A stretch of 64,000 bases of DNA from assembly GCF_009389715.1 (NCBI RefSeq), contig NW_024068007.1, positions 75,001 to 139,000 on the forward strand, in the 5' to 3' direction. The DNA is from Phoenix dactylifera. Its lineage: Eukaryota; Streptophyta; Magnoliopsida; Arecales; Arecaceae. The translations under genes and the position numbers were made by a program. Positions 101 to 46,339 of this stretch are shown piece by piece (the stretch's first letter is position 1; every line of letters starts with the position of its first letter). The notes beneath the pieces were generated by a model. That model was not told the origin of the DNA. It searched no databases and saw only the letters and a list, made by a program, of their open reading frames with translations.

Positions 101-455
101 TGTAGAGAATACAGGGAATAGAAAAACAAGAACCTGCTATGGAGGATACAGAAAATCTGAAAAAACAAAGACTCAGTTGTATTGATAAATCCTTTTTTTT
201 TTTTACACACCTAGAACACATAACAGAGTACTCTTAAATAAACTCGATGACTTGACAAGGAAGTAAACACGTTCTACACTTGCCCTGTTTTTTCTCTAAC
301 AAACACAAATAGTCCTACATCATAGCATTAGTTAAAACTGTCCTACATACTAGCAAACAGGCCCAACATCCTAGCAACGAACTAGACACGTTCTAACTTA
401 TTCAAAAAACAAAATGCAATTGATTATTCTCTTCAGGTTTGAATTATTTCCAACA
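101..455 (-). repeat. Copia LTR (3' LTR in element orientation)
   Basis: It starts TGTAGAGAAT and ends TTTCCAACA. It matches 4578-4930 almost base for base (A/G near position 139 and T-run length are the differences I noticed). Confidence 0.95.
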
Positions 456-3400
456 CATCCCCTTAATTCAAACTTGTGGCTGTACTCCCATCATGTAACT
501 GAATTTCTTGAACTTTTCTTCTGGCAGTGCTTTTGTGAGAATGTCTGCTAATTGATCTTCTGTGTTGCAATGCTTTAACTCCACTTCTTCTTTAGCCACA
601 GCCTCTCTAATGAAGTGCTGACGAAGTTCAATGTGCTTGGTCCTCCCTTGATGAACTGGATTTTTTGTTATTGCAATGGTAGATTTGTTGTCACAGAACA
701 TCCATGTTGCCTCAACTTGCTTTTCTTTCAAATCACACAGTATCCTTCTGAGCCAAATTACTTGACATGCAGTGGTTGTGGCTGCTATATACTCTGCTTC
801 CGTGCTTGAAAGTGCCGTGGCCTGTTGCTTCTTTGATGCCCATGATATCACTCCAGAGCCAAGATTGAAGACATAACCTGTTGTACTTTTTCTATCATCT
901 ATACAACCTGCCCAATCACTATCAGAAAAAGAAATTAGCTTAAAGTTAGTAATCTGGGAGTATTGAATCCCAAAGTTGAGAGTGCCAGCTATATATCTCA
1001 TAATCCTCTTTGCTGCCCCAAGATGATGCTTGCTAGGATTATGCATAAACCTGGATATAATGCTCACAGAAAACATAATGTCGGGTCTTGTATGAGTGAG
1101 ATAAATCAATCCTCCCACAATACTTCTGAAGTGCTTCTCATCAGTCTTTCCACTGCCATCACACAGACTAAGCTTCTCATTCATATTCATTGGTGTCTTT
1201 GCTGGAGTACAATTTGACATACCAAATTTTCTTAACAAATCAGAGGCATATTTTCTCTGGCATATGAAAATCCCATTCTGATTCTGAATGACCTGAATTC
1301 CAAGGAAATAATGCAAGAGACCCATATCTGACATTTCAAAATTTTTCATCATCTTGTCCTTAAACTCTTCTATCATTTTTGATGAACTCCCAGTGTATAT
1401 CATGTCGTCAACATATAAACATACAATCAGAATATCATCATGGGCATGGCATTTCACATAAAGAGTCGGTTCACTAGCACTCTTATGAAAACCATTGTCT
1501 AGAAAATACCTGTCAATTTTGCTATACCATGCTCTTGGCGCTTGTTTAAGCCCATAGAGTGCCTTCTTCAACCTGTACACTTTGTGCTCCATCCCTTTTA
1601 TCTCATATCCTTTGGGTTGTTCCACATAAACTTCTTCATCAAGTTCCCCATTAAAAAAAGCTGATTTGATATCTAATTGAAAAACTTGCCAACTTCTTTG
1701 AGCAGCTAGAGCCAAAACAGTTCTAATAGTGTCAATTCTAGAAACTGGTGCAAAGGTTTCAAAGAAATCTATACCTTGCTGTTGTGAATATCCCCTTGCA
1801 ACCAATCGTGCTTTGTGTCTTTGAAGAGACCCATCGGCATTAAACTTGGACTTGTAGATCCATTTGAGTCCAATAGCTTCCTTACCAGGAGGTAGATCCA
1901 TCAACTTCCAACTGTTGTTCTTCTCGATTGCTTCAACCTCCTCATTCATTGCATCACACCATTCTTTCTTTGTCACTGCATCTTCAAAAGAGGTAGGCTC
2001 CATAGCAAAACAAGCAAATTCACATGAATTATATATGTCAGCAAGACTTCTTTCCTTGATAGGAGTTGAATCACAGGATGAACTTGATAATTCACTAGAG
2101 TCTTGGGAAGAAATCACAGTGGTAGATGGTTCAAGGGAAGTATTATCATCTTGTACACAAAATGGAATTTTTTTCTTCATTCTTCCAATTCCATGCTTCA
2201 TTTTCATTGAATATCACATCCCGGCTTATGATTAATTTTTTAGAAATAGGATCATAAAGCCGATATCCTTTAGTTTCTTCACTATAGCCAATGAAAATGC
2301 ACTTTGAGCTTTTATCATCTAACTTTTGCCTTTTTTCAGATGGTATAAATACATAGGCTATAGAACCAAAAATCTTTAAATGACTTACATTGGGTTTCCT
2401 TCTGCTCCAAGCTTCATATGGAGTTCTCCCTTGAACTGCTTTTGTAGGAAATCTGTTGATTAGGTACACTGCTGTTGCAACAGCTTCAGCCCAATAACTA
2501 TTTGGAAGTCTTTTGTCTTTTAACATACTCCTTGCTGCTTCGACTATGGTCCTGTTTTTGCGCTCAGCCACACCATTCTGTTGTGGCGTATAATTTGCTG
2601 TCAATTGCCTTTTAATACCCATAACACTGCAAAACATACTAAATTCCCTAGAAATGAACTCACCACCTCGATCAGTACGCAATATAGTGATATAGTGACC
2701 GCACTTCTTTTCAACAAGGGATTTAAATCTCTTGAATATAGGAAGAGCCTCAGATTTTTCTTTCATGAAATACACCCAAGTCATTCTTGTACAATCATCA
2801 ACAAAAATAATAAAATACTTATTTCCATTCAAAGACAATGTCTGCATTGGACCACATATGTCAGCATGTACAAGCACCAATGGTTTATTTGCACGCCAAG
2901 CTTTTCCTACTGGAAATTTTTCACGATGATGCTTTCCAAATACACATGCTTCACAGACTTTACCATCATGTTTCACTAATGGAAAACCAATTGCCATATT
3001 CATTTTATGCATTAGATGCAATCCACCAAAGTTCAAATGAGCAAACCTTTTATGCCATAACAAGGATTCATCAAAAAATGCTGTAAATGCATTAAATACA
3101 ACCTTAGAGAACAAGATTGGGAACATCTTATTTTCTGCCATTTTAACAGAGAACATTAACATCTTGCTTTTCTTATCATAAATCATGCATTCATCATTAT
3201 CAAACATGGCATAGTAACCCTTTTTCATCAATTGACCCAAACTTAACAAATTTTGAGTCAACTCAGGAACATACATGACATCTGAAATAAGTTTCTTCCC
3301 TGTCCTTGTATTAACAACAATGGTACCAAGTCCATGCACCTTCACTTGATTGTTATTACCCATTCTTACTTGTGTTTTGACAAATTCATCAATTTCCACA

Positions 3401-4561
3401 AAATAATTTTTGTTTCCTGTCATGTGATTACTACACCCACTGTCTAAATACCACACTTCATCATTCATTTCAGCAAGGCAAGAAAGAAACAATATATCTT
3501 CATTTTCATCCTTTTTGATTTCTTTTTCTTCATGAAAATGAGCTTGTTCTCTAGTTTTTTGGCGACAATACTTTTCAATGTGTCCATACTTTTTACAGTA
3601 AAAGCATTATAGTAGTTCTCTATCTCTATTCTTATACCAGCAATCCTTATCAGCATGATTTGTTCTTTTACAAATTGAACATGACAGAGAAGTAGAATCA
3701 GTGTTACCTTCATTGAAGTTTCTCTGTTTTTGATGAAATTGGACTCTTCCTCTTCCTCGGAATTCATTTCCACGGCCACGGCCTCGTCCTCTTCCTCTGT
3801 ATCCCCTTCCTGAATTTTCTGACCCTTTCTTCAAATCAAGTTTTGACTGAAATGCTTGTTCCAAAGAGTTCTCTGAAGCCCTATTCACCCGCTGCTCATG
3901 TGCTTGAAGAGAACCCATTAGTTCATTCATAGAATATATAGACAAGTCTTTGGACTCCTCTATAGCAGCAACTACATGATCATACTTAGGAGGAAGGCTC
4001 CTTAGTACCTTTTCAACAATTTTTTGATCAATCAATTCCTCTCCATAAGCTCTGATTTGATTCACAAGTGAACTAACTCGTGAAAAAAATTCCTGTATTG
4101 TCTCAGAATTTTTCATAGACAAGTTCTCAAAATTACGACGGAGAGTCTGTAATTTGACGGTAATTACCTTTGATGTACCTCGATATTCCTCCTTCAACAC
4201 ATCCCACGCTTCTTTTGCAGTAGTGGCAGCCATAATCCGTGGAAATACGGTATCATCCAAGGCTTGTTGAATGATATACAAAGCCTTTGCATCCTTCTTT
4301 TGTTTCTCCTTCAACTCATTACGTTGAGCTGCTGTTAACCTTTCATGTACTGCAAGTTCTTCATATCCATTGTCAACTAAATCCCATAAATCAAAAGAGA
4401 TAAACAGAGTTTTCATCTTGATGGACCAAAATTGATAATTGTCACCATTCAGATTTTTGTACATTCTGTTGAGATCCACTTACTGCATTCATATTACCTG
4501 CCATGAAGTTTGAGGAAACACCCACTACTAGATCTGTCCGGCCACCTTTCTCACCGAACCA

Positions 4562-4574
4562 GGCTCTGATACCA
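4562..4574 (-). promoter_or_regulatory. Copia primer-binding site (tRNA-iMet type)
   Basis: Minus strand reads TGGTATCAGAGCC, the usual complement of the initiator-methionine tRNA 3' end, three bases inside the 5' LTR. A purine-rich tract (AAGGGGATG, complement of 456-464) abuts the other LTR. Confidence 0.9.
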
Positions 4575-4577
4575 ATC

Positions 4578-4930
4578 TGTAGAGAATACAGGGAATAGAA
4601 AAACAAGAACCTGCTGTGGAGGATACAGAAAATCTGAAAAAACAAAGACTCAGTTGTATTGATAAATCCTTTTTTTTTTACACACCTAGAACACATAACA
4701 GAGTACTCTTAAATAAACTCGATGACTTGACAAGGAAGTAAACACGTTCTACACTTGCCCTGTTTTTTCTCTAACAAACACAAATAGTCCTACATCATAG
4801 CATTAGTTAAAACTGTCCTACATACTAGCAAACAGGCCCAACATCCTAGCAACGAACTAGACACGTTCTAACTTATTCAAAAAACAAAATGCAATTGATT
4901 ATTCTCTTCAGGTTTGAATTATTTCCAACA
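4578..4930 (-). repeat. Copia LTR (5' LTR in element orientation)
   Basis: Direct repeat of 101-455, and it begins and ends with the same bases. The primer-binding site lies immediately inside it. Confidence 0.95.
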
Positions 4931-5096
4931 GATTTAGGACCGGGTCAACATAGACTTTTTGTTATGCCCGGGTCTTTCGGAGGGAGGGGATTAATGTCCC
5001 CTTAAATTAAACATTAAACAAAGGAAGGCAGGCGGCCAGGCTTATCAGCACCAACTTCGCTCTTGCACATATGAAGCTCCCATGGCCATCCCCACC

Positions 5097-5104
5097 TATT
5101 TAAA
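5097..5104 (+). promoter_or_regulatory. TATA box of YUCCA copy 1
   Basis: TATTTAAA in the context CACCTATTTAAACACC, identical to the parental gene's TATA at 32692-32699 and about 180 bases before the copied ATG. It is preserved, so this arm of the inverted repeat may still be transcribed rightward through the hairpin. In copy 2 the matching site reads TATTGAAA. Confidence 0.6.
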
Positions 5105-5279
5105 CACCCCACATCCTCTCGACTACTTCCCATCTTCATTCCTATCTCCACAGACCAACTCCATTGGCAACAATACTACTAATCTTTGATTTCCTCTGGT
5201 CACAAACTCAACCTCATTATTCCCAACCACTCTTCAAACCAACCAACCAATCTCTCCAGGATCACGCATCCATTTGAGC

Positions 5280-6153
5280 ATGGCTTATCAGTTCGATTTC
5301 TTCTCTCGACGGTGGGTGTGGGTGAATGGCCCGATCATCGTCGGAGCTGGCCCGTCCGGCCTAGCAGTGGGTGCATGCCTGAAGGAGCAAGGCGTTCCCT
5401 TTCCTTCGTGATCCTCGAGCGCTCCGACTGCATTGCCTCCCTCTGGCAAAAGCGTACTTACGACCGCCTGAAGCTCCACCTCCCCAAACAATTCTGCCAG
5501 CTTCCGAGGCTCCCCTTCCCGGAGGACTACCCTGAGTACCCGTCCAAGAAGCAGTTCATAGACTACTTGGAGTCATACGCTAAGAACTTCGACATCAACC
5601 CAAGATTCAACCAGTCAGTGCAGTCCGCGAGGTACGACGAGACGTGCGGATTATGGCGTGTAAGGACTGCCGGGTCTGGTGCCGAGGTGGAGTACATTGG
5701 CCGGTGGCAGGTGGTGGTCACCGGCGAGAATGCCGAACGAGTAGTCCCTGAGCTGGAGGGACTGGGGCAGTTTGGTGGCGATGTCACGCATGTCCGTGAC
5801 TACAAATCCGGCAGGGCCTACCAGGGGAAGCGGGTATTGGTGGTCGGATGCGGCAACTCCGGCATGGAGGTCTGTCTCGACCTCTGCGACCACAATGACT
5901 TCCCATCCATGGTTGTTCGCGATTCGGTGAGCGATCACTGCTGAAAAAATAACGGTATCAGACAATTGTTTCTAGTACAAAAATCTCCAGTTCTTCTGAT
6001 GGATCTCTGATTTATTTAACAGGTTCATGTACTGCCAAGAGAAGCTCTCAGGAAATCGACGTTCCCAAGAGATGAGCGCCCTGGGGAAGATAAAGTCTGG
6101 TGACATCAAGGTGGTTCCTGGGATCAAGAGGTTTATGCGGGGAAAAGTTGAGC
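5280..6153 (+). pseudogene. YUCCA copy 1: exon 1, intron 1 and part of exon 2, frameshifted
   Basis: Near-identical to the intact YUCCA gene at 32900-34737 from upstream of the TATA box through part of exon 2. The copied ATG at 5280 opens [12 protein letters not shown] 5-base insertion at about 5401-5405 shifts the frame after the FAD-binding motif GAGPSG. The rest of exon 1, including GCGNSG, is preserved in the shifted frame. The exon 1 donor (GTGAGC at 5937) and the acceptor (ends 6022) are intact. Exon 2 has lost roughly 170 bases, replaced by about 11 filler bases resembling nearby sequence, and stops after GTTGAGC where the hairpin loop begins. It cannot make an active enzyme. Because the intron is present, it arose by DNA duplication, not retroposition. 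Confidence 0.93.
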
Positions 6154-6171
6154 TCATCTCATAATTGAAGT

Positions 6172-6942
6172 GCTCAACTTTTCCCAGCATAAACCTCTCG
6201 AACCTGTTAAATAAATCAGAGATCCATCAGAAGAACTGGAGATTTTTGTACTGGAAAAAAAATGTCTGAAACTGTTATTCTTTCAGCAGTGATCGCTCAC
6301 CGAGTCGCGAACAACCATTGATGGGAAGGCATTGTGGTCGCAGAGGTCAAGACAGACCTCCATGCCGGAGTTGCCGCATCCGACCACCAATACCCGCTTC
6401 CCCTGGTAGACCCTGCCGGATATGTAGTCACAGACATGCGTGACATCGCCGCCAAACTGCCCCAGTCCTTCCAGCTCAGGGACTACTCGTTCGGCATTCT
6501 CGCCGGTGGCCACCACCAGCCACCGGCCAATGTACTCCACCTCGGCACCAGACCCGGCAGTCCTTACACGCCATAATCCGCACGTCTCATCGTACCTCGC
6601 GGACTGCACTGACTGGTTGAATCTTGGATTGGTGTCGAAGTTCTTAGCGTATGACTCCAAGTAGTCTATGAACTGCTTCTTGGATGGGTACTCAGGGTAG
6701 TCCTCCGGGAAGGGGAGCTTCGGAAGCTGGCAGAATTGTTTGGGGAGGTGGAGCTTCAGGCGGTCGTAGGTACGCTTTTGCCAGAGGGAGGCAATGCAGT
6801 CGGAGCGCTCGAGGATCACGAAGGGAACGCCTTGCTCCTTCAGGCATGCACCCACTGCTAGGCCGGACGGGCCAGCTCCGATGATGATCGGGCCATTTAC
6901 CCACACGCACCGTCGAGAGAAGAAATCGAACTGATAAGCCAT
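6172..6942 (-). pseudogene. YUCCA copy 2: full-length open exon 1, intron 1 and 32 bases of exon 2
   Basis: On the minus strand ATG is at 6942 and exon 1 runs to 6301 (642 bases, 214 codons, the same length as the parent) with no stop or frameshift. It retains GAGPSG (FAD) and GCGNSG (NADPH). A few replacements set it apart from the parent, such as PIIIGAG for PIIVGAG and DYISGRVY for DYKSGRAY. The intron occupies 6204-6300 with GTGAGC..CAG ends. Exon 2 is cut to 32 bases by a deletion that joins its first four bases to the GAGGTTTATG segment. It lacks the ATGYRSN region and exon 3, so it is not a working enzyme. A LINE disrupts its upstream region. Confidence 0.92.
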
Positions 6943-7148
6943 GCACAAATGGATGCGTGATCCTGGAGAGATTGGTTGGTTGGTTGGCTTGAAGAGTGGT
7001 TGGGAATAATAAGGTTGAGTTTGTGACAAGAGGAGATGAAGGGTTAGCAGTATTGTTGCCAATGGAGTTGGTAATGAAGTCTTTGTTGAAGTTGGAAAGG
7101 ACGAGAGGATGGGGGGTGTTTCAATAGGTGGGCATGGCCATGGGAGCT

Positions 7149-8763
7149 GCAATTTTTTTTTTTTTTTTGGTGTTCAAAAAAGCATTTAATTACCAATAAC
7201 TTAAGTTTGAGTACATCCTGCCAAATGAAAAGAAAATAAACAGGGCAGTAGGTAGGGAACACCTGCTGAACTCGTCCAGATGATATCCCCTATGAGGCGA
7301 TCCAGTCTGCTGCTCTGTTCGCCTCTCGAAACACATGAATAATTTGGATAGCGGACAACTCCTCGAGAGTAAAGGCGTAGATAAATAGCTCCAAATCTGT
7401 ACAGCCTTAGGACAGTGAAATAAGACATGGCATATGGACTCTTCAATATCCGGGCATACCTCGCAGTACTGGGTCATCCTCGCTCCCCGTCTAACCAGTA
7501 CGCTCTTGGTTGGAAGACAGCCCCAAGCTACCTTCCAAAGGAAGAGCGCCACACGAGGATGCACCCTCAGCCTCCATATCCAACCCGCATCGATCTGTTT
7601 GCCTGGCTCCCTACCAATTCATGCTTGAAGATCTTTAGCCCAGTCAGCTCCCAAATCAGTCTATCTAGCTCCTCCCGTAATGGTACACATAAAGCCATAA
7701 CCCTCGCCGCAAGCTGCTCCCCAAAAACTTTCCGTATCAGCCCCTCATGCCATCGTCCCTTTCCGAGGACAATCAGGTCACTAACTCTGAGCTTTGTAGC
7801 ATGTTCGTGTCCACCATCATCGGCATGCGACTGATAGGTAACTCCGTCACCCAGCTATCCTCAAGTACATCAATAAATCTCCCATCTCCCACTACCCATC
7901 TAATCGCCGGCAACACCATAGGGACTCTGGCACAGATCTCCCTCCAGATAGGTGAGTGGTGACGCCCTACACGCCTACTAGACGGTAAACTGCCACACTT
8001 GGCCCTTATCAAGGAGGACCACATACTATCAGGCTCCAGCAGAACTTTGGCTGCATGTCGCATCATCAATGCATCCCATCTCACCATCAAAGAAGTCACC
8101 CCTAAACCATCCTACCTGATCGGCTGGCATACCACCTTCCAAGCCATCAAATGAATGCCACCTCTATCACCATGCCTCTCCCGTATAAAATCCCTGATGA
8201 ACCTCTTAAGTGATCTCAACAACGCCACTGGAAGAATGGAATTGGATAGGAGGTATATCAGAATGGAGCTCAAAACTGACCGCGACCGAGTGACCCTACC
8301 CATCATGGATAGAGTATGCATCTGCCACTCCTCCAGCCTGTGTCTGATACTAGTATCTAGGGAGAGGCAATTCCCACTACGTAGTTGTCGTCCCGTGATT
8401 GGAACTCCCAGATATCTCAGCCTACTCTCCTGCTGCCTCATCTCTAAGATCTCCATAATGGCTCCCTTCGCCTGTGATGTGGTCTTCGGGTTGAAGTGGA
8501 TTGTTGACTTTGCTAGGTTGATTTATTATTCGGAGGCAGCACAATAGACACTAAGAATCGATCTAATCACCTGGGCAGCCTGCCTGGTCGCTCGGGCCAG
8601 GAGCAGACTATCATCTGCAAATAGTAGATGGGATATCGGTCTGGCCCCCTGCACCGGCTTGTAAACCTCCAGCCGCTGGGAGTTCACAGCACACCGTAGA
8701 GCCCTAGAAAGAGAATCATCACATATAATAAAGAGCAAAGGAGATAAAGAGCACCCCTGGCAT
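7149..8763 (-). mobile_element. LINE A: 5'-truncated L1-type retrotransposon inserted in YUCCA copy 2 promoter
   Basis: Flanked by a 14-base target duplication TGGCCATGGGAGCT (7135-7148 and 8764-8777), which is single-copy in the parental YUCCA. The 3' poly(A) appears as T's at 7152-7168. Minus-strand reading frames give the C-terminal part of ORF2: reverse-transcriptase motif FADDSLLLA (about 8610), a connection region with RYLGVPITGRQL (about 8410), then the zinc-binding domain with HPRVALFLWKVAWGCLPTK and CEVCPDIEESICHVLFHC (7560-7400). Frames are broken in several places. The endonuclease and first half of the reverse transcriptase are missing, as expected of 5'-truncated insertion. Confidence 0.93.
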
Positions 8764-8777
8764 TGGCCATGGGAGCT

Positions 8778-9525
8778 TCAAAAGTACGAATTTGGTGCTC
8801 TCAAGGTCCTTGTCAAATGATAAGCTCGGCCGCCTCCTTCCTTTGTTTAATGTTTAATTCAATGTATGCTTTAGATAATATCCAAGATGAGGTTTTCGAG
8901 ATATTCTGCTGAAAGTTTTGAAGATCGATCACAAGATCTGAGGGGCGTTATTGGTGACTTTTATAATTTCTTCTAGTGTTTTAAATTTATTCTTTTTTTG
9001 TGCCTGTAGATATTGTTACACCTGTTGTTTCCTTTTTTTTTGTCACAGCCTCAGAAGAGTGGGCGATCAAATGGTTTATCGCAAGCAAACATGCTCGCAT
9101 TCAATCTATGACTCACTCAAATACATTCTTTTTTCTTCCTTTAGGAAGCAATTGGGAGCATAAGTAGCCAGAAGAAGGCAAACAAAAAAAGCAAGAGAGT
9201 TAGAAGAGAAAAGAAAATAGTTATAAAGAACTTATTTGATTTACTGAAAGAGGAGAGAGAAAAGTATGGTCAATAGGAAGATAGAGAAATTTCTTATATT
9301 TGGTTAGATTTTTTAAAAGAGAGAGATGAGAAGTAACTTTCTTATAGAAATAAGATTCTCGTATTTATGAAAAAGAAAAACCCATTTAGAACATAAAAAA
9401 AATATAATTCTTATTGGTTTTGAAATTAGGATATTTTTTTTATCTAAAAGTACACTTAAGTTTTTAGATACAAGGAGGCAAGATCTTTTCCTTTATTAAG
9501 AGCATAATATGAATTTTACATAATT
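8778..9525 (-). repeat. Inverted copy of the YUCCA upstream region
   Basis: Reverse complement of about 31965-32680, the DNA upstream of the intact YUCCA. Shared landmarks include the TTAAACATTAAACAAAGG block and the TAAAAACTTAAGTGTAC block. It continues right-arm copy 2 beyond the LINE. Identity looks lower here (about 85%) than in exon 1 and the intron. Homology ends near 9525. I see no gene in it. Confidence 0.85.
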
Positions 9526-9569
9526 TTATGAGAGGCCTCTCCTTTGTGCTGGTGCACTAGATAGACCGC

Positions 9570-11291
9570 TGATGAGAGCACAAAAGTGCGTTATACACGT
9601 TGCTTAAATTAATATTATTGCTAACAAATAATGATAAAAGGGCTGCATTAATTTTATATTTTATTTGGCACAGATTATCGTAAATCAGAGTTTAAATGTG
9701 AATTTGGTTGACTTCTAGCTTGATTGCACTGGAACAGAATTGAACCTGGTCAAGCACACTTGCACAGGGACACATAGCAGCCATCCGGAGGCAGCGCAAG
9801 ATGGATCCACTAAGGGTCTAATTTCATCATTCGGGAGGATCCAAAAGCCCGCAACACCATCCACGTCTGCATCTGATGCTTCCGGACCCGTTTCAGCTCC
9901 AACGTCGCAGCAACTGTGATCAAAGCCTCCTCCTTCCGCGATCAGCTCCTTCTTCCACCCGAACCCGTGAAACTTCCGAGCATCCCGTCCACCATGTCAG
10001 TCTTCTCCCACGTTCCCATCCATTCCAGCCGAGATCAGCGCCTCCCAGCAGCCCGTGACCAGCTCCCGTGCACAATCCCAGCGTCCGCCTCCTCCTCGAG
10101 CCTCACGCGTCTCACCCTCCATGTCACAGATCCCAGCATCCCGTCTCCATAGCGTCCACGAAGCATCCGTGATCAACGCCCTCTGCTTCCACCATCTCCC
10201 AGCTCCAGCCATGATCCAAGCAGCGGATCCCAGCTTCCTTCCCAAGTCGAATCCGCGTCCATCCCGTGTGAAAACAGGGAGAGTAACGATCCCCACCATC
10301 CCGTGATCCACTCTTCCGACTGCAAGCATCCTCTTCCGTCCGCATTCACCAGCGTCTGCAATCAAGGATCCACTCTAGCCCATGATTCAAGCCATCCTCC
10401 GTGCCGGATTCACATCTTCTTCAAAGCAATCCCGCGGCCAGCTCCATCGATCCAGCCGATCCCGTGCATTCCGCCCCAACCATCACGCAGGCGTTCTTCC
10501 TCCTCTCCACGCAAAATCAGATCCATCGCTGGCTGATCTCTGGTGGGATCTATAAGAGGAGGAGAAAGGGGCTCCGATTTGAGGGAGAAAACAGGAGGAA
10601 GAACAGGGGTGGCGGCTGTTGCGGTTGAGGGAAAAGAGAAGAAGGAAACAGGGTATGCCCTGTTTCCGAAAAGAAAAAGAAAAAAAAAGGAATAAGAGAG
10701 GGAAAGGCTAGAGAGGGAAAGGCTAGTGTTTTTGTAATGGGAGGCTAACACCCTTGGTCAAGGGTGATGGAAGAACCCTTGATAGTTTGCTTTCTTCAAG
10801 TAAATTCTGAACGATTATTTTCTTTGATTTACATCTATTATATGCTCTTGGTTCTTGCATACTTATTTGTTAGATAGATCTTGTACGGTTTATATTTATT
10901 GATGCATGGGTTGTTTCGATTTTTTTGATTTATTGTAGACGTAACCGGCACGATAAATACTTGAATGTTGAATTCATGTTTTCAAAGTATATATTCCATG
11001 CTTAGAACTATTCTATCTAATTAATTCTTAATCAAGAATCGCAAAAATTTAATTGTTGAAAATAATATTATCAAAGGGGAATCCAGATCCCTAGCCTTCT
11101 CTATATTCTTGAACGTTGTTTCATTATCTATTATTCTCTGCTTTTAATTTTTGAAGATCAACTAAAAATTACATCTAAAAATTACGCTAATAATCTATAG
11201 ATCGTTCCCTGAGGAATCGACCTCGGACTTCCGAGTTATACTACTTGTGCGATTCTCCTGCACTTGGGAGAACAGTTTTATTTTTGCACCA
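9570..11291 (+). repeat. Athila-like 5' LTR
   Basis: Starts TGATGAGAGCACAAAAGTG and ends TTTTTGCACCA. It holds a CT-rich stretch, a stable short hairpin (10644-10667) and an A-rich tract. Short open frames inside it have no recognisable product. Confidence 0.94.
10644..10667 (+). promoter_or_regulatory. Conserved LTR hairpin (5' LTR)
   Basis: Stem GGAAACAGGG / CCCTGTTTCC with loop TATG, 1,074 bases from the LTR start and followed by an A-rich run. The 3' LTR has the same hairpin, and the diverged solo LTR at 61347-63041 has it with paired changes. Its function is unknown; an RNA element in the LTR transcript is my inference. Confidence 0.6.
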
Positions 11292-11297
11292 AGTTTT

Positions 11298-11312
11298 TGG
11301 CGCCGTTGCCGG
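11298..11312 (+). promoter_or_regulatory. Athila-like primer-binding site (tRNA-Asp type)
   Basis: TGGCGCCGTTGCCGG, complementary to the 3' end of plant tRNA-Asp, six bases after the 5' LTR. Confidence 0.9.
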
Positions 11313-12372
11313 AGAACGGCTGATTTATTAGTATAATTTTAGATTTAATTTTTACCTTAGTAGTTAGTATTTTTCTTTTGAAAAAAAAATTAAATTACAT
11401 CTTTACTACTATTTTTAATTCCCTGCACAGTCTGCATCAAACTCTGATATCATAGAAATTAGCCGTCTGATTGGACTCAAATTGACATTCTGAGACTTTT
11501 AAAACCATTAGATTAATACAAAATCTTGCTGCTTTCTGCTTAGAATTTTCTGCATTTAATTTTTTTAGAATAAGAAATTTGTTGTTATCATATCTTATTA
11601 ACCCTTGTTGCTAATTGAATTTAGAAAAAAAAAACTTTAAGAAAAGATCAAGGGTGATTATTCAAAAATTAAAAAAAAAGAGTGGAAAAATCTAAAATTT
11701 CAAATTTCAAATTTCAGAATTCAAATTTCAAACGTCAACTCATAAAATTTAAAAATAAATAAATAAATAAATAATTTGCTTGATCACCTATTCAATGAAA
11801 TTTAATGTCATGTCATAACACATTAAAAAAAAAATCTCTTGATTGTTGCATATAGGATAAGGCATCAGCATAAAATATTTTAAGGGCAGAATCCATTTAA
11901 AAAGATAAGGTCGGGATTTCATCACTCGTCCTTAGCCCAAAAATCACCCCAATGCATAAATATCCTAAGCTTAACTAAAATCAACTAGACGTTGGCCCCT
12001 AAGGACATTCGAGCTCAATAGGACGAAGACCACCGAAAGTTGCACCAATTTTGCTCTGTGGCTTTGTCCCTATAAGGGAGACAGTTCATCTGTTCGAGGC
12101 AAGTGGATTTTAAGTGGAACCTTTGCGAATGCATCGTGACCCCTCCACTTACCTGGGAGCTTACCTGGTCAACTCGGTTCATTAGACCGGATTGGAGGCT
12201 TAGGTGCCCCCTTCAAACCAGTTAGGAGCTGTCTAGAAATTTAAGAAAAACATTAGAAATTGAGGTGTAATGTTTTGTTGCATGTTTGATTGTAAATAGA
12301 TTTTCGTTTTTGGGTATCTTTAGTTGGTACTTATATTTATTTTTTTAAAAAAAAGAGAGAAAAATATTTTGC
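11313..12372 (+). other. Athila-like leader between primer site and gag
   Basis: AT-rich, with short homopolymers and AATAAATAAATA repeats near 11755. I see no coding potential; it is untranslated leader of the element. Confidence 0.6.
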
Positions 12373-15300
12373 ATGCTAAAATGGAATAGGGACGACACCG
12401 GTCGATTAAGTCGTACAACTTTAGATCATCCCTTAGGACATACCCCTGAAATTCCTTCTCAATATCTCACACCTTGTGAGATGGCTGATTTAAATGAAGA
12501 TGCGGGGAGTCACCACAATCGAGAACGAGAACCCCATGTTATGACTCTAAGACAATACCTACAACCGGCTAGGACTAGTCAGCCTTCATGCATAATTTTT
12601 CCTGATAATGTAGGACATTTTGACATCAAACCGGGGGTAATCCAATTGTGGCCCAAGTTTCATGGGTTAGAGTCCGAAAGTCCGTATCTTCATTTAAAGG
12701 ATTTTGAAGAATTGAGCATTACATTTAGAGTATCAAACGTCACCGAGGATGTCCTCAAGTTGACATTGTTTCCTTTCTCTCTAAAGGATAAGGCTAAAAC
12801 ATGGCTAAACTCTTTGCGACCTAGATCAATAAGAACTTGGCAAGATATGCAGAGAGAATTTTTAAAGAAGTTCTTCCTCACACAAAGGACCAACTTTTTG
12901 AAAAGACATATCAGCAATTTCCAACAAAAAGATAATGAAACATTTTATGAGTGTTGGAAAAGATTTAAAGACCTTCTTCTCTCATGTCCTCATCACGGGT
13001 TCGAAACTTGGAGAACCATTAGTTTCTATTATGAAGGTTTATCTCCCCAATTGAAACAGTTTGTAGAGACCATGTGCAATGGTAGATTTTTAGAAAAACA
13101 CCCTGATGAGGCGTGGGAATATTTGGATTCCCTTGTTGAGACTGCCCAACTTTGGGATAACGGGGATAGAAACAACAAGTCTTTGCCTAAGCCTACTAGC
13201 TCTGTACAGGGAGGCCTTTACAACCTCAGAACTGAGGATGATCTTCATGCTAAAATGGCAGCCCTCACTAGGAAGGTAGAAGAAATTGAGCTTAGGAAGG
13301 CTGAGCCTGTCAAAACTATAGAGGTTAGAAACGAGTGTTGTAGTATCTGCGATATGTCGGGTCATACCACTACAGATTGCCCCACCATACCGGCATTCAA
13401 AGAAGTCTTACACGATCAAGCAAATGCTATGAACTCCTACCAAAAGCCTTATAACGATCCATACTCGAATACATATAACCCTGGTTGGAAGAATCATCCA
13501 AACTTTAGGTGGAGAAATGATCATCCTCAACAGTCACAACATTCAGCTCCTCCACCCGCACATCCTACTTTTGCATCACCACCCTCTCAAAAGCCAAATA
13601 TCGAGGATACCTTGCAATCCATACAAACTTTTCTACAAGGTCAAGCTAATATCAATGCTCAAAATACTCGAAATTTTGAAGATATAAGGAACCAATTGTC
13701 AATGTTGACTACCGTCCTAAGTACCCAAGAGAAGGGTAAGCTTCCAGCTCAACCCCAACCTAACCCACAAGTGCACGGTAGTAATAATACGGCTCCTTCT
13801 AGTTCGCATACAGAGCATGCAAAGAGCATTATGACTTTGCATAATGGGAAAGTCATTGATCAAACCGTCCAATTGAGACCGCAGGTCACTTCTAATTCTA
13901 ATGCTCCCAAAGCCGATGAAAGGGACAAAGAAGAAGTTGAGGTCCCAACCTCTACCGAGAAAGTTGAATGTCCTTTTTCTCCACCTTTTCCACAACGGTT
14001 AAAGCCGTTGCAAAAGCTCGAACCTAATTCTGAAATTCTTGAGCTTTTTAAACAAGTAAAGATCAACATACCTCTTCTTGATGCAATCAAACAAGTACCC
14101 TCATATGCCAAATTTTTGAAGGACTTGTGTACTGTTAAGTGCCAATTAAATGTTAAGAAGAAGGCATTTTTAACTGAAAATGTGAGTGCTATTTTGCAGC
14201 ACAATATTCTCTCTAAATATAAAGATCCAGGTTGCCCAACCATCTCATGCATCATAGGCAACTTTAGGATAGAGCGAGCATTGTTAGATTTAGGAGCGAG
14301 TGTGAATTTGTTGCCATATTCTGTATATGAGTAACTTGGTTTAGGTGAGTTGAAGCCAACCTCCGTCACTTTGCAATTAGCTGACAAGTTAGTTAAAATT
14401 CCAAGGGGGATTATCGAGGATGTATTAGTCCAAGTAGACAAGTTCTACTTTTCTGTCGATTTTATTGTATTGGACACACATCCGGCTTCGAACTCACAGT
14501 CTCAGATTCCGGTTATTTTAGGACGTCCATTCCTTGCAACTTCTAATGCATTGATTAATTGTAGGAATGGCGTCATGAAGCTTTCTTTTGGTAATATGAC
14601 CTTAGAACTGAACATTTTTAATGTATGCAAACAACCCAATGATTCCGAAGAGAGTAAGGAGATTGATTGGGTTGAAACCATCGCAGAAGAATATTTGTTA
14701 GCTAAAGCAATTAACGACCCATCCAATGATAGCTTAATTGATTGATGTCCTAATGGAACCGATGACGATGATTTGTCAGTCACACCTATTGTGGATAATC
14801 TGGATATCAAGATGGTCAATGGGTGGAGACCAAAAGTAGGAGAATTTGAGAGGTTGTCGCCTCGAGAGGTGAAAATAGTACTATCCCATGAGCAAGCACC
14901 CAAGTTCGAATTGAAACCCTTACCGAAGGAACTCAAGTATGCCTTTCTTGGACCCGAGGACACTTACCCTATAATTATCTCGTCTGATCTTAATCATGAC
15001 CAAGAAAGAAAATTACTTGGTGTTCTAAAGAATCATAAAGGAGCTTTAGGGTGGTCTATTGCCGACTTGAAGGGGATTAGCCCCTTAGTTTGCACGCACC
15101 GGATATATTTGGAGGACAATGCCAAAACCACAAGACAAATGCAACGAAGGTTAAATCCTACAATGAGAGATGGTTAAGGCAGAAGTCCTCAAGTTGCTTG
15201 ACGTGGGTATTATTTACCCAATTTCCGACAGCAAGTGGGTAAGCCCTACTCAAGTCGTTCCTAAGAAATCGGGTTTGACGGTAGTAGAAAATGAACAAGG

Positions 15301-17749
15301 TGAACTAGTTCCAACTCGTGTCCAGACGAGTTGGCGCATGTGTGTTGACTACCGAAAGCTGAATTTGGTCACACGAAAGGATCACTTTCCTCTACCCTTC
15401 CTAGACCAAGTATTGGAGAGGGTTGCAGGGCATGATTTCTATTGTTTTTTCGATGGCTATTCGGGATATTATCAAATTGAAATTTTACCGGAAGATCAAG
15501 AGAAGACTACCTTCACTTGTCCTTTTGGCACATTTGCTTTCCGACGAATGCCATTCGGGTTGTGTAATGCACCTGCAACATTCCAAAGATGCATGCTCAG
15601 CATCTTTGAAGACATGAACGAGAAATTTTTGAAAGTGTTCATGGACGACTTCTCCGTTTTTGGCGACACATTTGATGATTGCCTGTCACATTTACAAGCT
15701 GTCTTAGCTTGATGTATGGAAAAGAATTTGATACTGAATTGGAAGAAATGCCACTTCATGGTGCCAAAGGGAATTGTCTTAGGACATATTGTTTCATCGA
15801 AGGGCATGGAAGTAGATAGAGCTAAGACTGATTTAATTGCTAAGCTACCTGCACCCAAGACGGTTAGAGATGTTAGATCATTTTTGGGTCACGCCGGATT
15901 TTATAGAAGGTTCATCAAGGACTTTAGTATCATATCTTGACCATTATGTAATTTCCTATCCCTTGATATACCGTTCAATTGGACTGAAACCTGTCAGGAG
16001 GCATTCAAAAAGTTGAAGTCTATGCTTAGCACTGCACCCATCGTGCGACCACCCGATTGGTCATTACCTTTTGAGATTATGTGCGACGCTAGCGACTATG
16101 CAATAGGAGCTGTCCTAGGACAACGAAAGGATAATAAGCCATATGTCATTTACTATGCAAGCAAAACCTTAAACGATGCTCAAATGAATTACACTACCAC
16201 CGAGAAGGAATTGCTTGCAGTAGTATTTGCCTTAGATAAATTTCGCTCTTATATCCTTGGTGCTCCTATTGTTATCTTCACGGACCATGCGGCACTAAAA
16301 TATTTGTTGGATAAGAAAGAAGCCAAACCACGCTTAATACGATGGATACTTCTACTCCAAGAATTTGACATCACTATCAAAGATAAAAAAGGAGTAGAGA
16401 ATGTGGTTGCTGACCATTTATCACGATTAGTTTTTCATGATTCAGTGCCACAGTTTTCCATCAAGGACTCATTCCCTGAAGAGCAGTTGTTTGCACTTTC
16501 TAGTATACCATGGTATGCAGATATTGTAAATTTTCTTGTTACAAGCCGGATGCCGGAGCATTAGGGGTCGACAGATAGAAAAATTTTCTTGCGCGAAGTA
16601 AAGAATTATTACTATGACGAACCCTATTTGTTTAAATATTGCAATGATCAAATCTTTAAAAAATGCATACCGGATCATGATATACAAAGCGTACTTTCTT
16701 TCTGCCACACTGATGCTTGCGGTGGACACTTTGCCTCTAAGAAAACTGTTGCAAAAGTTTTGCAATGTGGTTTCTATTGGCCCACTATGTTCAAAGATGC
16801 CCACGAGTTCTGCAGGACATGTGATCCATGTCAACGTATTGGAAGTCTAACTCGTAGGCAAATGATGCCTCTTCAACCCATTGCTATTATCGAAATTTTC
16901 GATTGTTGGGGCATCGATTTTATGGGCCCATTCCCACCATATTTTGGATATGAGTACATTTTAGTCGGTGTCGAATATGTGTCCAAATGGGTAGAAGCTG
17001 TTGCTTGTAAGACCAATGATCACAAACCCGTCCTGAAGTTTTTAAAAGAAAATATTTTTTCACAATTTGGAATGCCTAATGTCATAATTAGTGATGGTGG
17101 AAAACACTTTTGTAATAAGCCTTTTGAGACATTATTAAAAAAGTATGGTGTCACCCACAAAGTTGCTACCCCATATCACCCGTAAACTAGTGGCCAAGTA
17201 GAATTAGCCAATAGGGAGATCAAGCGTATTTTAGAGAAAACGGTGAACCCATCACGAAAAGATTGGTCCTTGAAACTATCAGATGCATTATGGGCCTATC
17301 GTACTGCATACAAAACCATTCTTGGCATGTCTCCCTACCGGCTAGTCTATGGAAAAGCGTGTCATCTGCCTGTAGAAATAGAACATAAATCGTATCGGGC
17401 AATTAGAAAATTGAATTTTGATTTACAAGATGCCGGTCTAGCTAGAAAATTGCAATTAAACGAGCTTAATGAGATTTGCAGAGATGCTTATGACAATGCT
17501 AAAATTTGCAAAGAACGAATGAAGATCTTACATGATAAATCAATTTTAAAAAAATCTTTTGAACCTTTGCAAAAAGTTCTTTTATATGATTTCCGCTTAC
17601 ATCTGTTTCCTGGTAAGTTGCGATCGAGATGGATAGGTCCTTACATTATAAAAACTGTTTTTCCACATGGGGCGGTTGAGATTGAGAATCCACGGGATGG
17701 TAGAATTTTTAAGGTAAATGGACATAGGTTAAAACCCTTTTCTTGAGAA

Positions 17750-19252
17750 TTTTGCAGATGAAGAGGACTCCTTTTCCTTAGGGGAGCCTTCTTATGACTG
17801 AGCATGAAGGCAAAGGTATGTGTATATTAGTTAGGATTATTTTTTCTAGTTTTGTAGGTTTTATTTTCTGGATATCAACAGCTCAAGGTATTCTTCTTCT
17901 CTTCAATATTATTTTCTCTACTGTCTTTCATTATAGCTTTCTTGTATCTATTACATTGAGGACAATGCAATGTTTAAGTTGGGGGGAGGGAAGTATTTTG
18001 CAAAAAAAAAAAAAAAAAAATTGCATTCTTTTCTAAGCAAATGCACATGTATTTTCATATTGAGTTTGTGCAACTATTAAGGCAAGGAATACATGCGTAC
18101 TATGACTGATCAGAGACCTATTATTAGATCCCCGCACATGTATTTAATGATTATAGGAAGGCCTCAGGAGTTCACATTTGTTTAATGCATTTTTATTAAG
18201 CCATATCTGTAAAAGAAGTACGAGTATCTTTGTCCGTACTATAAGGTTCTTGATTTGGTTTTCACATAAAGATAGAGATTGAATACCCGGCTAGATCATC
18301 TAAGTGCCTTATGTTCCGACCTTGGTTGACCTATAGTCACGTTGCAGTCACATTATATGGTTCAGTTTACCTTCTCTATCTTTAAAAAAAAATAAAAAAA
18401 ATAAATAAATAAATGAGGAGATGACAAGTCTAACCTCGTGGCGTAGTCTGGTTCGAGTAATTAAGCCCGAGGGGTGTTTTACCTAATGCCTTGAGCCAAC
18501 TGGATCAGGAGTCATTGGCCGAAAACTCGCTACATGGATCTTACTAGAGCCTAAGGGGGTTGGACTATTGTAATCGTCATATTTGTTTAAAAATAAAAAT
18601 AAGCATGAATAAGGTTGGTTGGACTGAACCCAGTGACATGTGGTAATGGCTGGTTTGACTCCATTAACTTGGAACTCTGTGTACTTTGGACGTTTAGCTG
18701 GGCTTGATAGCTCCTTCTTTATATGCGAACCATTTTTGACAAATTTAGACAACATGAGATATTCTGAAAATTTGATAGATCAGGCTCTAATAAACTGTAG
18801 TAAACACTTGTGAACTTGAGTAGTGCACCTAAAATTCAAGCAGTGCTATGTTGTGGTGGAGGTATTAGTGCTCTAAGAAAGTCATACTCTTTTATGCACA
18901 CTACACTTTCATATTTTCCTTGCTTTGATAGTTGCCATGCTTAAAAATATATATTAGTTACATGAGTATTAGCTTAAAATTTAGGACCTCATGTCATATC
19001 ATTCATGATGTTTGTGGGTAACATCTCTACAAACCCTCACGAGACAACACTCGTCCGCTAGGGTAACCTAGGGGTTTAACGGCTTGTTGCACGAGCTAAG
19101 TGCAATCGTGATGTCCTACGAAAGTGGGTACGTATCTTAGTTTTGTGTTTTTAGCTTCAATAAAAAGTCATAGGTTAGACCACACCTTTTGTGCTCTCAT
19201 TATTGTTTGCTCGTTAATTACTAGAGACTAGCAATAAGCTAGTTGGGGGATA
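17750..19252 (+). other. Athila-like 3' internal tail, no gene seen
   Basis: Lies between the end of the integrase region and the 3' LTR. In Athila relatives an env-like frame can sit here, but I see none. It contains A-runs (18001-18019) and ends in a polypurine tract TTGGGGGATA abutting the LTR. Confidence 0.7.
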
Positions 19253-20976
19253 TGATGAGAGCACAAAAGTGTGTTATACACGTTGCTTAAATTAATATTA
19301 TTGCTAACAAATAATGATAAAAGGGCTGCATTAATTTTATATTTTATTTGGCATAGATTATCGTAAATCAGAGTTTAAATGTGAATTTGGTTGACTTCTA
19401 GCCTGATTACACTGGAACAGAATTGAACCTGGTCAAGCACACTTGCACAGGGACACATGGCAGCCATCCGGAGGCAACGCAAGATGGATCCACAAAGGGT
19501 CTAATTTCATCATCCGGGAGGATCCAAAAGCCCGCAACACCATCCACGTCTGCATCTGATGCTTCCAGACCCGTTTCAGCTCCAACGTCGCAGCAACTGT
19601 GATCAAAGCCTCCTCCTTCCGCGATCAGCTCCTTCTTCCACTCGAACCCGTGAAACTTCCCAGCATCCCGTCCACCGTGTCAGTCTTCTCCCACGTTCCC
19701 ATCCATTCCAGCCGAGATCAGCGCCTCCCAGCAGCTCGTGACCAGCTCCCGTGCACAATCCCAGCGTCCGCCTCCTCCTCAAGCCTCACGCATCTCACCC
19801 TCCATGTCACAGATCCCAGCATCCCGTCTCCATAGCGTCCGCGAAGCATCCGTGATCAACGCCCTCTGCTTCCACCATCTCCCAGCTCCAGCCATGATCC
19901 AAGCAGCGGATCCCAGCTTCCTTCCCAAGTCGAATCCGCGTCCATCCCGTGCGAAAACAGGGAGAGCAACGATCCCCACCATCCCGTGATCCACTCCTTC
20001 CGACTGCAAGCATCCTCTTCTGTCCGCATTCACCAGCGTCTGCAATCAAGGATCCACTCTAGCCCATGATTCAAGCCATCCTCCGCGCCGGATTCACATC
20101 TTCTTCAAAGCAATCCTGCGGCCAGCTCCATCGATCCAGCCGATCCCGTGCATTCCGCCCCAACCATCATGCAGGCGTTCTTCCTCCTCTCCACGCAAAA
20201 TCAGATCCATCGCTGGCTGATCTCTGGTGGGATCTATAAGAGGAGGAGAAAGGGGCTCCGATTTGAGGGAGAAAACAGGAGGAAGAACAGGGGTGGCGGC
20301 TGTTGCGGTTGAGGGAAAAGAGAAGAAGGAAACAGGGTATGCCCTGTTTCCGAAAAGAAAAAGAAAAAAAAAAGGAATAAGAGAGGGAAAGGCTAGAGAG
20401 GGAAAGGCTAGTGTTTTTGTAATGGGAGGCTAACACCTTTGGTCAAGGGTGATGGAAGAACTCTTGATAGTTTGCTTTCTTCAAGTAAATTCTGAACGAT
20501 TATTTTCTTTGATTTACATCTATTATATGCTCTTGGTTCTTGCATACTTATTTGTTAGATAGATCTTGTACGGTTTATATTTATTGATGCATGGGTTGTT
20601 TCGATTTTTTTGATTTATCGTAGACGTAACCGGCACGATAAATACTTGAATGTTGAATTCATGTTTTCAAAGTATATATTCCATGCTTAGAACTATTCTA
20701 TCTAATTAATCCTTAATCAAGAATCGCAAAAATTTAATTGTTGAAAATAACATTATCAAGGGAGAATCCAGATCCTTAGCCTTCTCTATATTCTTGAACG
20801 TTGTTTCATTGTCTATTATTCTCTGCTTTTAATTTTTGAAGATCAACTAAAAATTACTTCTAAAAATTACGCTAATAATCTATAGAACGTTTCCTGAGGA
20901 ATCGACCTCGAACTTCCGAGTTATACTACTTGTGCGATTCTCCTGCACTTGGGAGAACAGTTTTATTTTTGCACCA
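19253..20976 (+). repeat. Athila-like 3' LTR
   Basis: Direct repeat of 9570-11291 with about 2% divergence. The hairpin is repeated at 20328-20351. Confidence 0.94.
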
Positions 20977-31770: not shown

Positions 31771-31964
31771 TTGGATGACCATATCTACTTTGGACTCGTT
31801 TGATTTGCGGAAAAAAAATTCTCTCACTAAAATATTTTTCCTAGAAAGCCAATGCCTGGATATATGATATATGAAAGAACAATTTTTTTATATTTGGTTG
31901 AAAATATAAAAATGACACATTTTAGAGTGGCTTATGTTTAGTTGAGCATTTACTTTTTTGAGAA

Positions 31965-32590
31965 AATTATGTAAAATACCTATTATACTCTTAATAAAGA
32001 AAAAATCTTACCTTATTGTATCTAAAAACTTAAGTGTACTTTTAGATAAAAAAATATATCCTAATTTCTGGCCAGTAAGAATGGTATTTTTTCATGTTCT
32101 ATTTTCCAATAAATGTAAGAATCTTGTTTCCGTGAGAAAATTACTTTTTTCATCTCACTCTTTTAGAAATTCTAACCAAATATGAGAAATTTCCCCATCT
32201 TCTTATTGGCCATACTTTTCTCTGTCATCTTTCAGTAAATCAAACAAGGTCTTTATATCCATTTTCTTTCCTCTTCTAACTCTCTTATTTTTTTTGTCTG
32301 CCTTCTTCCTTTCTCGACTACTTGCACTCCCAATTGCTTCCTAAAAGAAAAAAAAAGAATATATTTGAGTGAATCATAGATTGAATGAGAGCATGCTTGC
32401 TTGTGATAAACCATTTGATAGGCCACTCTTCCGAGGCTGTGATAAAAAAATTTTTTTTGTTAGGAACGGTATCTACAGGCGCAAAAAAATAATAAATCTA
32501 AAACACCCCTCAGATCTTGTGATCTTCAAAACTTTCGGTAGAATACCTCGAAAGCCTTGTCTTGGATATTATCTAAAGCATACATTAAAT
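31965..32590 (+). repeat. YUCCA upstream region, copied inverted at about 8870-9525
   Basis: The two stretches align as reverse complements with small indels (about 85% identity by eye). This sets the outer limit of the segment that gave rise to copy 2. No gene is seen in it. Confidence 0.8.
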
Positions 32591-32691
32591 TAAACATTAA
32601 ACAAAGGAAGGAGGCGGCCGGGCTCATCATTTGACAAGGACCTTGAGAGCACCAACTTCGCTCCTTTGAAGCTCCCATGGCCATCTCCACC

Positions 32692-32699
32692 TATTTAAA
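32692..32699 (+). promoter_or_regulatory. TATA box of the intact YUCCA gene
   Basis: TATTTAAA about 200 bases before the ATG at 32900, implying a 5' UTR of about 170 bases. Confidence 0.7.
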
Positions 32700-32899
32700 C
32701 ACCCCCCATCCTCTCGTCCTTTCCAACTTCAACAAAGATTTCATTGCCTACTGCCGTCCTCTCAACTCCTTCCCATCTTCACTCCTATCTCCTCAGACCA
32801 ACTCCATTGGCAACAATACTACTAACCTTTCATCTCCTCTGGTCACAAACTCCACCTCATTATCAACCAATCCCTCCAGAATCACGCATCCATTTGAAC

Positions 32900-39365: not shown

Positions 39366-39929
39366 TCATGCATCGGACCAAGTAATCTTATGCTCTCCAA
39401 CGTGCGAAGGGATCCTGAGAGCCTTCCACACTGCCGGTGAAGCATCCACTATATTGTGAGGACATGGTGGCTGGAAATCGTGCTCGGCGTCGCAACCATG
39501 TACAGAATCACACTCATCAACAACTTTAGCCAGTACGGACTTACCATTTGCATGGATCCTGATGTTTTTGCCGCATCGGCTGCCGTGATGGTACCAACCT
39601 GTTGAGAGGGCCACAACTCTCTCATGATCACTGTGGTAACTATTGTCGCACTCCGAAGGTCCACCCCCATCCCCACCTTTTTCGAAGCTGTTGATGGTCA
39701 TCGTTGCACGGGTGGCTTCGGTCACCGGCGGCGAGCAACGGTACTGTGGGTACTTCTCTCCAGCCTTACAACACTCGGATTCGTTCTCGGGGTTGCACTT
39801 GCCAGCCTTGCCTTTAAGGAACCCACTAGGTCTGCATGCTTCAGCATGGGAGGTGATGCGAAAGCTAGCGCCGAGACCCAAACTTGATAGCAGTAGTACT
39901 AGAACCAGAGATGGTATATAGCTCACCAT
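39366..39929 (-). CDS. Kiwellin (ripening-related protein), gene A
   Basis: 187 codons, single exon. An N-terminal signal peptide (about residues 1-31, hydrophobic [12 protein letters not shown]) is followed by a cysteine-rich secreted domain: [48 protein letters not shown] and the C-terminal ITWSDA, with ten cysteines. These are hallmarks of kiwellins, apoplastic proteins with a double-psi beta-barrel related to barwin; in maize a kiwellin blocks a fungal chorismate mutase, so a defence role is plausible here by analogy only. Length fits the family and the frame is intact. A TATA box lies about 90 bases upstream. It is nearly identical to broken gene C over the shared part and clearly diverged from gene B. 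Confidence 0.94.
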
Positions 39930-45536: not shown

Positions 45537-46003
45537 AGGAAGGCCATTGAAAAGAATGAAGTGAAGCTGGCTTGGGAGTGTCTTCTGTCCACGATGTGCT
45601 GGGCTCTTTGGAAAAAAAGAAATAATCGAAGCTACTTCATCGAAGAAAGTCATGCAACAATGCCTCTTCCTTCTTTGTAGCTGGACATATGCCACTCGAT
45701 CGGCAAGATATCAGATGCCTATGCAATAGCTTCTTAGGATGCTAACTACTGTAAATCTTCAGCACCAAGCTCAAGTGCTAACTACTTCCTTCCCTCGACC
45801 CTATTGTCGAGGCCATGAGTAAACCTCGGCTCCTGGAGAAGACAGTAGGGAACTTCTTAATCTCCTTGTAATATACTTTGTAAGTATTAACCTCTAGTAA
45901 TAATAATAACTGGGCGGTTATGTAATACCCCCCCCCCCAAAAAAAAAAAAAAAGAGGGCGGATGGGCTGGCCCGAAAAGACCGGGCCCATCCCCCTTAAA
46001 AAA

Positions 46004-46028
46004 ACGATCGTGCCTAGGGCACGATCGT
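46004..46028 (+). repeat. Perfect 25-base palindrome in LTR
   Basis: ACGATCGTGCC / GGCACGATCGT around TAG, 84 bases from the LTR start and repeated at about 50579. Just upstream GATGGGC..GCCCATC forms another stem. Confidence 0.85.
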
Positions 46029-46339
46029 GACAGAGAGGGGCACGGGAGAGAGGCGGCGGCGTTGGAGAGGGTTCGCCGGAGGGATGTGAGCGTCGGGGAG
46101 AGGCGACCAAGAGCCGGCCGGCCGCGGAGGAAGGCCACTTCCCTTCAAGAAGATCCCCACAAATCGGTGAAGAGATCTTGGACCCGTGCGTGTTTGCTCA
46201 CGGATTTCTTCCTCCGATTTCTCGCCGGAAAGGTTGCCGGAGCACGCCGTCAGACCGAGGTAAGTGGGGCTCCCTTTCTTATGCTTCTTTTTGGGTGGCG
46301 TTGGAGGAGTTTTTTTGGCCGGTGAATCGTCGGAGAAGA

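Follow-up and report, generated by a model that had tools for sequence, protein, structure and literature searches.

The locus examined here raises the question of whether two facing partial copies of a YUCCA auxin-synthesis gene act as an RNA silencer of the intact gene to which they are linked, or whether they are simply decaying side by side. The window, that is, the whole stretch of DNA that was analyzed, comprises 64,000 nucleotides of the date palm (Phoenix dactylifera) genome (contig NW_024068007.1, positions 75,001 to 139,000). The features on which the argument depends are listed below by position in the window, with the strand given as + or -.

101-4930, -: LTR retrotransposon, probably copia-type, adjoining the left arm; target duplication GATTT; Pfam RVT_2 and integrase
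5002-6158, +: left arm (L), a partial YUCCA copy matching parent 32585-33679 and 33852-33934
5097-5104, +: TATA box TATTTAAA of the left arm, intact; same element in the parent
5400-5404, +: 5-bp insertion, a frameshift in the left arm, placed from alignments and ORFs; position approximate (repeated TTCC motif)
6159-6166, no strand: centre of the inverted repeat, 8 nt
6167-7152, -: right arm (R), inner part, matching parent 33937-33897 and then 33641-32666
7119-7126, -: TATA box of the right arm, mutated to TATTGAAA
7153-8764, -: LINE fragment inside the right arm; A-tail (reads as a T-run) at 7153
8765-9527, -: right arm, outer part, a copy of parent promoter region 32683-31963 at 80.4% identity (BLAST)
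9570-20976, +: LTR retrotransposon, probably gypsy-type, adjoining the outer end of the right arm; target duplication ACCGC
32900-34737, +: intact parent YUCCA gene (P); CDS 32900-33541, 33638-34009 and 34513-34737; 412 aa

The parent encodes a full-length FMO-like protein close to named YUCCA flavin monooxygenases: it shows 100% identity over 412 aa to P0001, annotated as 'probable indole-3-pyruvate monooxygenase YUCCA9 [Phoenix dactylifera]', and matches the Pfam FMO-like family with an E value of 4.3e-28. Homology of the arms covers exon 1, intron 1 and part of exon 2 of the gene at 32585-34737. The first-pass annotation had placed an intact gene about 26 kb from the repeat; the spliced parent ORF is indeed intact, and the distance measured was about 25 kb. 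A MITE-like sequence with inverted ends around TTTGATTT/AAATCAAA was noted by eye in the parent promoter region (31796-32250), and the promoter copy of the right arm stops inside it, near parent 31963.

Comparison of the two arms bore out the proposal that two copies of the YUCCA 5' part face each other. The main stem pairs 5072-6026 with 6200-7151, about 955 bp at 93.3% identity across 960 alignment columns (51 mismatches, 13 gap positions and a BLAST E value given as 0.0), in agreement with a predicted stem of about 900 bp over exon 1 and intron 1. Two details of the original description needed correction. The 18-base spacer shrinks to the 8 nt at 6159-6166 once an inner 38-bp palindrome (6121-6158 / 6167-6204, 87% identity) is recognized, and the right copy does not end at 7148 but is cut by the LINE, with homology returning at 8765-9527. 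By BLAST, the arms end at parent positions 33934 and 33937, the same parent point within 3 bp.

The left arm extends from about 95 bp 5' of the TATA box through exon 1 and intron 1 into part of exon 2. Its TATA box is kept, as first described, and its intron splice sites are intact. The exon 1 reading frame of the right arm is open, with zero indels relative to the parent; spliced like the parent, the right arm yields an ORF of 223 aa whose stop adjoins the repeat centre. Both arms are without most of exon 2 and the whole of exon 3, and the part of exon 2 that is gone differs between them. With the frameshift in the left arm and these losses in both, the locus consists of two disabled copies in opposite orientation, an inverted pseudogene pair. 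Both arms also carry a stretch without counterpart in the parent 5'UTR at 32863, which measures 23 bp in the left arm (from 5220) and 27 bp in the right.

Transposons have inserted in and beside the repeat. The LINE lies about 30 bp upstream of the right arm TATA box and is bounded by a 17-bp target duplication with one mismatch, GGCCATGGGAGCT[G/T]CAA, at 7136-7152 and 8765-8781. One piece of it matches Pfam zf-RVT (PF13966, E 2.5e-16), and a second matches RVT_1 (PF00078) at 27.7 bits, below the Pfam cut-off of 29.6. On its far side, the outer right arm stretch 8818-8862 pairs with the outer end of the left arm, 5002-5047. From domain order, we read the 101-4930 element as copia-type (integrase before RT) and the 9570-20976 element as gypsy-type (RVT_1 then integrase). 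The LTR pair of the former differs at 2 of 356 sites and that of the latter at 35 of 1719.

Several further features were observed elsewhere in the window. Copies of a gene for a small secreted protein lie at 39366-39929, 53892-54461 and 63253-63735 (-); those at 39366-39929 and 53892-54461 match Pfam Kiwellin-1 (E 5.7e-70 and 3.4e-69), and the one at 63253-63735 is alike by ORF translation and duplicated DNA. A tandem array at 40735-41846 repeats a unit of roughly 289 bases at roughly 98% identity and contains repeated ORFs. A direct repeat pair of 2.66 kb (45919-48581 / 50498-53157) differs at 10 of 2659 sites and may be the LTR pair of a young element or else the product of recent duplication.

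The divergence of the copies was assessed in a three-way alignment of 895 sites, a set that drops three right-arm differences at 33642-33645, beyond the collinear segment. The left arm alone differs at 15 sites, the right arm alone at 22, both arms together differ from the parent at 11, and all three copies differ at 1, which gives pairwise differences of 38 (L-R), 27 (L-P) and 34 (R-P). Jukes-Cantor distances over 249 non-coding sites are 7.6% between the arms (18/249), 5.8% for L-P and 6.7% for R-P. Because the non-coding L-R distance of 7.6% compares with LTR pair distances of 2.1% for the gypsy-type and 0.6% for the copia-type element, the inverted repeat looks older than both flanking elements, provided that rates were similar. 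A candidate process of gene conversion keeping the arms alike was rejected, no clustered tracts being visible by eye in the site list of L, R and P differences.

Individual residues point in opposite directions as to how the copies are related. Both arms share Asn101, produced by a C-to-A change, where the parent has His, and this is the single nonsynonymous position at which they agree against the parent; among seven other YUCCA proteins, residue 101 is His in six and Ile in P0145, so the shared Asn101 favours a common origin of the arms. Against sister arms, Val178 and Ile21 point to the right arm as the older branch: Val178 of the right arm (Ala in L and P) is Val in three of the seven other proteins (P0002, P0003, P0008), Ile in one and Ala in three, and Ile21 (Val in L and P) is present in one of the seven (P0002, Elaeis). 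Both of these changes are of the C-to-T type and easily repeated. The rooting of the three copies is weak.

The promoter copy of the right arm differs from the parent at 91 of 675 sites, counted in 100-base windows from 32000 on and omitting the edge window from 31900 (19/60 sites differ); the right arm UTR and intron together differ from the parent at 16 of 249 sites, below the rate of the promoter copy. Parent-to-right-arm changes in the promoter copy include 39 C>T/G>A against 26 in the reverse direction. In exon 1, 8 of the 12 changes unique to the right arm are C>T/G>A (4 at CpG), compared with 2 of 7 unique to the left arm (1 at CpG), the sites being few. A methylation scar as a sign of siRNA activity was considered and rejected: the changes are too few, and the transposons beside the right arm could explain the C>T/G>A excess.

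Selection on exon 1 was evaluated by placing changes at random, with base change and CpG class kept, in 5,000 draws. Five runs were made (R; L; L=R versus P; R without one site; R plus L=R versus P), and P values are raw. The left arm, with 2 synonymous and 6 nonsynonymous changes, agrees with the neutral expectation (means of 2.2 and 5.5); judged by this codon pattern, its exon 1 gives no sign of coding constraint and decays neutrally. The right arm carries 9 synonymous and 4 nonsynonymous changes, where neutrality predicts means of 4.4 and 8.2 (P 0.004; dropping the one site with three different bases raises it to 0.019). For the changes common to both arms relative to the parent, the counts are 4 and 1 (P 0.007), and for these combined with the right-arm changes they are 12 and 5 (P 0.0002). 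This pattern suggests past or present protein constraint on right arm exon 1, a constraint that is hard to square with an arm truncated from birth.

Exon 1 has also changed more slowly than the UTR and intron in both arms taken together (19/1284 versus 18/498; Fisher P 0.008). Taken singly, the left arm gives 7/642 versus 8/249 (P 0.04) and the right arm 12/642 versus 10/249 (P 0.09). The joint result indicates more constraint than free decay predicts and counts against an explanation by decay. Conservation of left-arm nucleotides without codon bias is odd and provides the sole hint of a sequence-level role, the numbers being small and the UTR hard to align.

To gauge silencing capacity, we considered the RNA that the repeat would produce. 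The predicted fold of 5128-7151 is one long stem, at -1887 kcal/mol unspliced and -1751 kcal/mol spliced; if transcribed, a left-arm transcript read through the right arm would form an almost perfect hairpin. With the parent transcript start assumed at 32725, exact 21-mers of the parent 5'UTR and exon 1 are found in the left arm in 380 of 797 cases, in the right arm in 361 of 797 and in either arm in 497 of 797; the arms match 11 of 352 in parent exon 2 and 0 of 448 in exon 3 and the 3'UTR. The locus has two features of a hairpin-siRNA locus, namely inverted copies with long dsRNA stem potential and an intact target with exact matches of siRNA length, so that its capacity on paper is clear. 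A search of the window against 4227 Rfam families at gathering scores gave 0 matches, and thus no MIRNA gene of a known family.

Canonical AATAAA signals lie just beyond the centre in each direction, at +6210 and -6016. The motif is present in the antisense of intron 1 because this intron ends in TTTATTTAACAG. With AATAAA past the centre both ways, transcripts might end before the long stem forms; on its own, the motif has little predictive power in plants. The first-pass interpretation as a hairpin-siRNA locus finds partial support: the anatomy fits it (long stem, tiny loop, left TATA box, splice sites and shared 21-mers), and the evolution of the arms gives no clear sign of a hairpin kept for silencing. 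Silencing of the parent by the repeat is possible but unproven, and arm evolution does not favour it.

A public protein model bears on the right arm. A search with right arm exon 1 retrieved P0121, a protein of 265 aa named 'probable indole-3-pyruvate monooxygenase YUCCA7 [Phoenix dactylifera]', which maps on the window as follows.

6174-10526, -: P0121 model, in pieces 10526-10414, 8512-8481, 6923-6301 and 6203-6174

The piece 10526-10414 falls inside an LTR (9570-11291) and 8512-8481 inside the LINE; 6923-6301 is right arm exon 1, and the final piece, 6203-6174, ends at the stop adjoining the centre, beyond which the model does not extend. GT/AG ends are present at the first and last introns but absent at the 8481/6923 join. 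The record from which P0121 derives may run directly from 8481 to 6923. Such a record would lack the right arm start codon, and an automatic annotator would be forced to seek another start upstream; since the start exon can be explained in this way, we do not take P0121 as proof of transcription. For the stretch 6924-8480, the join suggests that date palm records may differ by a structural variant. An exon 1 search with the left arm (179 aa; 765 candidates of similar length, E <= 1e-95) returned only P0121 and no model derived from the left arm.

Inverted duplications at soybean CHS and maize Mu killer reportedly cause silencing; the date palm repeat resembles them as an inverted duplication able to silence relatives, a capacity that is here predicted only. 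Silencing inverted partial copies of intact relatives are already known from poplar ARR17 (PMC7403218, PMC9636151) and Arabidopsis Cvi (PMC13213937). The poplar ARR17 inverted repeat lies on the Y and is reported with siRNA, methylation and an effect on sex; in P. euphratica, of three small ARR17 segments, only the two inverted ones have small-RNA reads, and the exon 1 homologues of ARR17 show relaxed selection (PMC7403218, PMC9636151). The likeness lies in inverted partial pseudogene copies, there of a response-regulator gene, with an intact target elsewhere, whereas the date palm repeat is linked to its parent at about 25 kb. In Arabidopsis Cvi, the genes of the VIM4-VIM2 repeat have been moved nearer to each other by a deletion that permits read-through transcription; small RNAs were measured from the Cvi repeats, and VIM2/VIM4 homology is near-perfect (PMC13213937). 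VIM4-VIM2 and PAI4-PAI1 share with the date palm locus facing gene copies with homologous genes elsewhere, but the date palm copies are both truncated and 4% apart at aligned sites. In rice, 145 of 11,956 pseudogenes have antisense small RNAs, and 2 inverted pseudogene pairs able to form hairpins, with stems of 185 and about 155 bp, have small RNAs (PMC2708354). These pairs are likewise two neighbouring inverted pseudogenes from one parent, whereas the date palm repeat has a stem of about 950 bp, hardly any loop and a linked parent. In contrast to the poplar, Arabidopsis and rice systems, the date palm locus is known here from sequence alone; we place it among inverted pseudogene pairs with the potential to act like the known silencers, not among the proven members of that group. 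No inverted YUCCA repeat or date palm YUCCA hairpin appeared among the literature titles listed, from a search with most subscription journals outside it.

Taken together, we consider it reasonably probable that the locus is an old inverted partial duplication of the date palm YUCCA gene that is now decaying, with its silencing capacity unproven. A gene copy, sister to the present parent, would have formed a head-to-head inverted dimer in one event, with its centre in exon 2, where the two arms break off at one parent position to within 3 bp. The truncated arms would then have lost pieces of exon 2 separately, the left arm would have taken the frameshift and the right arm the promoter mutation and the LINE, and the LTR elements would have landed beside both arms. 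Transcription through both arms could yield a hairpin RNA. Most likely, the locus is silent or methylated, or gives off some siRNA incidentally, and has no maintained part in the control of the parent. Decay is favoured because divergence between the arms (38/895) exceeds that of either arm from the parent (27 and 34) and because the right promoter is broken by the LINE and the TATA mutation; the match of P0121 to the right arm and the synonymous excess in that arm count against it. An active silencer would have Pol II run from the left TATA box, or from an LTR or LINE start on the right, through the centre, with siRNAs cutting transcripts of the linked YUCCA gene or methylating it and lowering local auxin synthesis. 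We regard this as unlikely, for all that the single-stem fold, the 497 shared 21-mers, the undamaged TATA box of the left arm, the intact intron splice sites and the slow exon 1, in the left arm without codon bias, agree with it, as does the same anatomy at poplar ARR17 (PMC7403218, PMC9636151) and at Arabidopsis Cvi VIM4-VIM2 and PAI (PMC13213937). Mutual divergence of the arms beyond that from the parent with no conversion tract by eye, the mere 95 bp or so left upstream of the left TATA box, the AATAAA signals just past the centre, the neutral codon pattern of the left arm, the broken right promoter, an apparent age of the repeat above that of the adjoining LTR elements, and a coding-like pattern of right-arm change that a hairpin would not need all speak against it. 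We give only a slim chance to a structural-variant auxin switch present in some date palms, in which a join like 8481/6923 would drop the LINE end and the dead right-arm promoter and so place the right arm under an LTR start; read-through into the antisense left arm, as likened to that at VIM4-VIM2 in Arabidopsis Cvi, would then yield siRNAs repressing the linked YUCCA gene.

That the right arm is, or recently was, a truncated coding gene (the 223-aa ORF or the 265-aa 'YUCCA7'), with the left arm a dead by-product and their pairing incidental, appears quite unlikely. The open, indel-free exon 1 with its 9 synonymous to 4 nonsynonymous changes, the splice sites leading to a stop adjoining the centre, and the public protein P0121 speak for such a gene. 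Yet YUCCA activity is unlikely in a product that lacks exon 3 entirely and exon 2 for the most part, the arm's own promoter is broken, P0121 needs a non-GT/AG join, and the selection test rests on 13 changes and is one of five runs. An assembly artefact, whether a palindromic read or misjoined copies, is very improbable. The P0121 join 8481/6923 mismatches the window, and the underlying record may differ here; but a false palindrome would give near-identical arms, whereas these arms differ by 38 substitutions in 895 sites and by different deletions, only one of them holds a LINE with a target duplication, and one public record probably contains both the parent protein and the right-arm protein. 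We rejected the assembly palindrome as the arms are too different.

If the locus is inactive, it has value as a negative case, in which the shape of a hairpin and good matches to a target went together with the evolution of ordinary decaying copies. If it is active, it would be a natural example, in a crop plant with a long life, of RNA silencing directed at a linked auxin-synthesis gene; as its arms and insertions can be dated, the working lifetime of such hairpins could then be studied.
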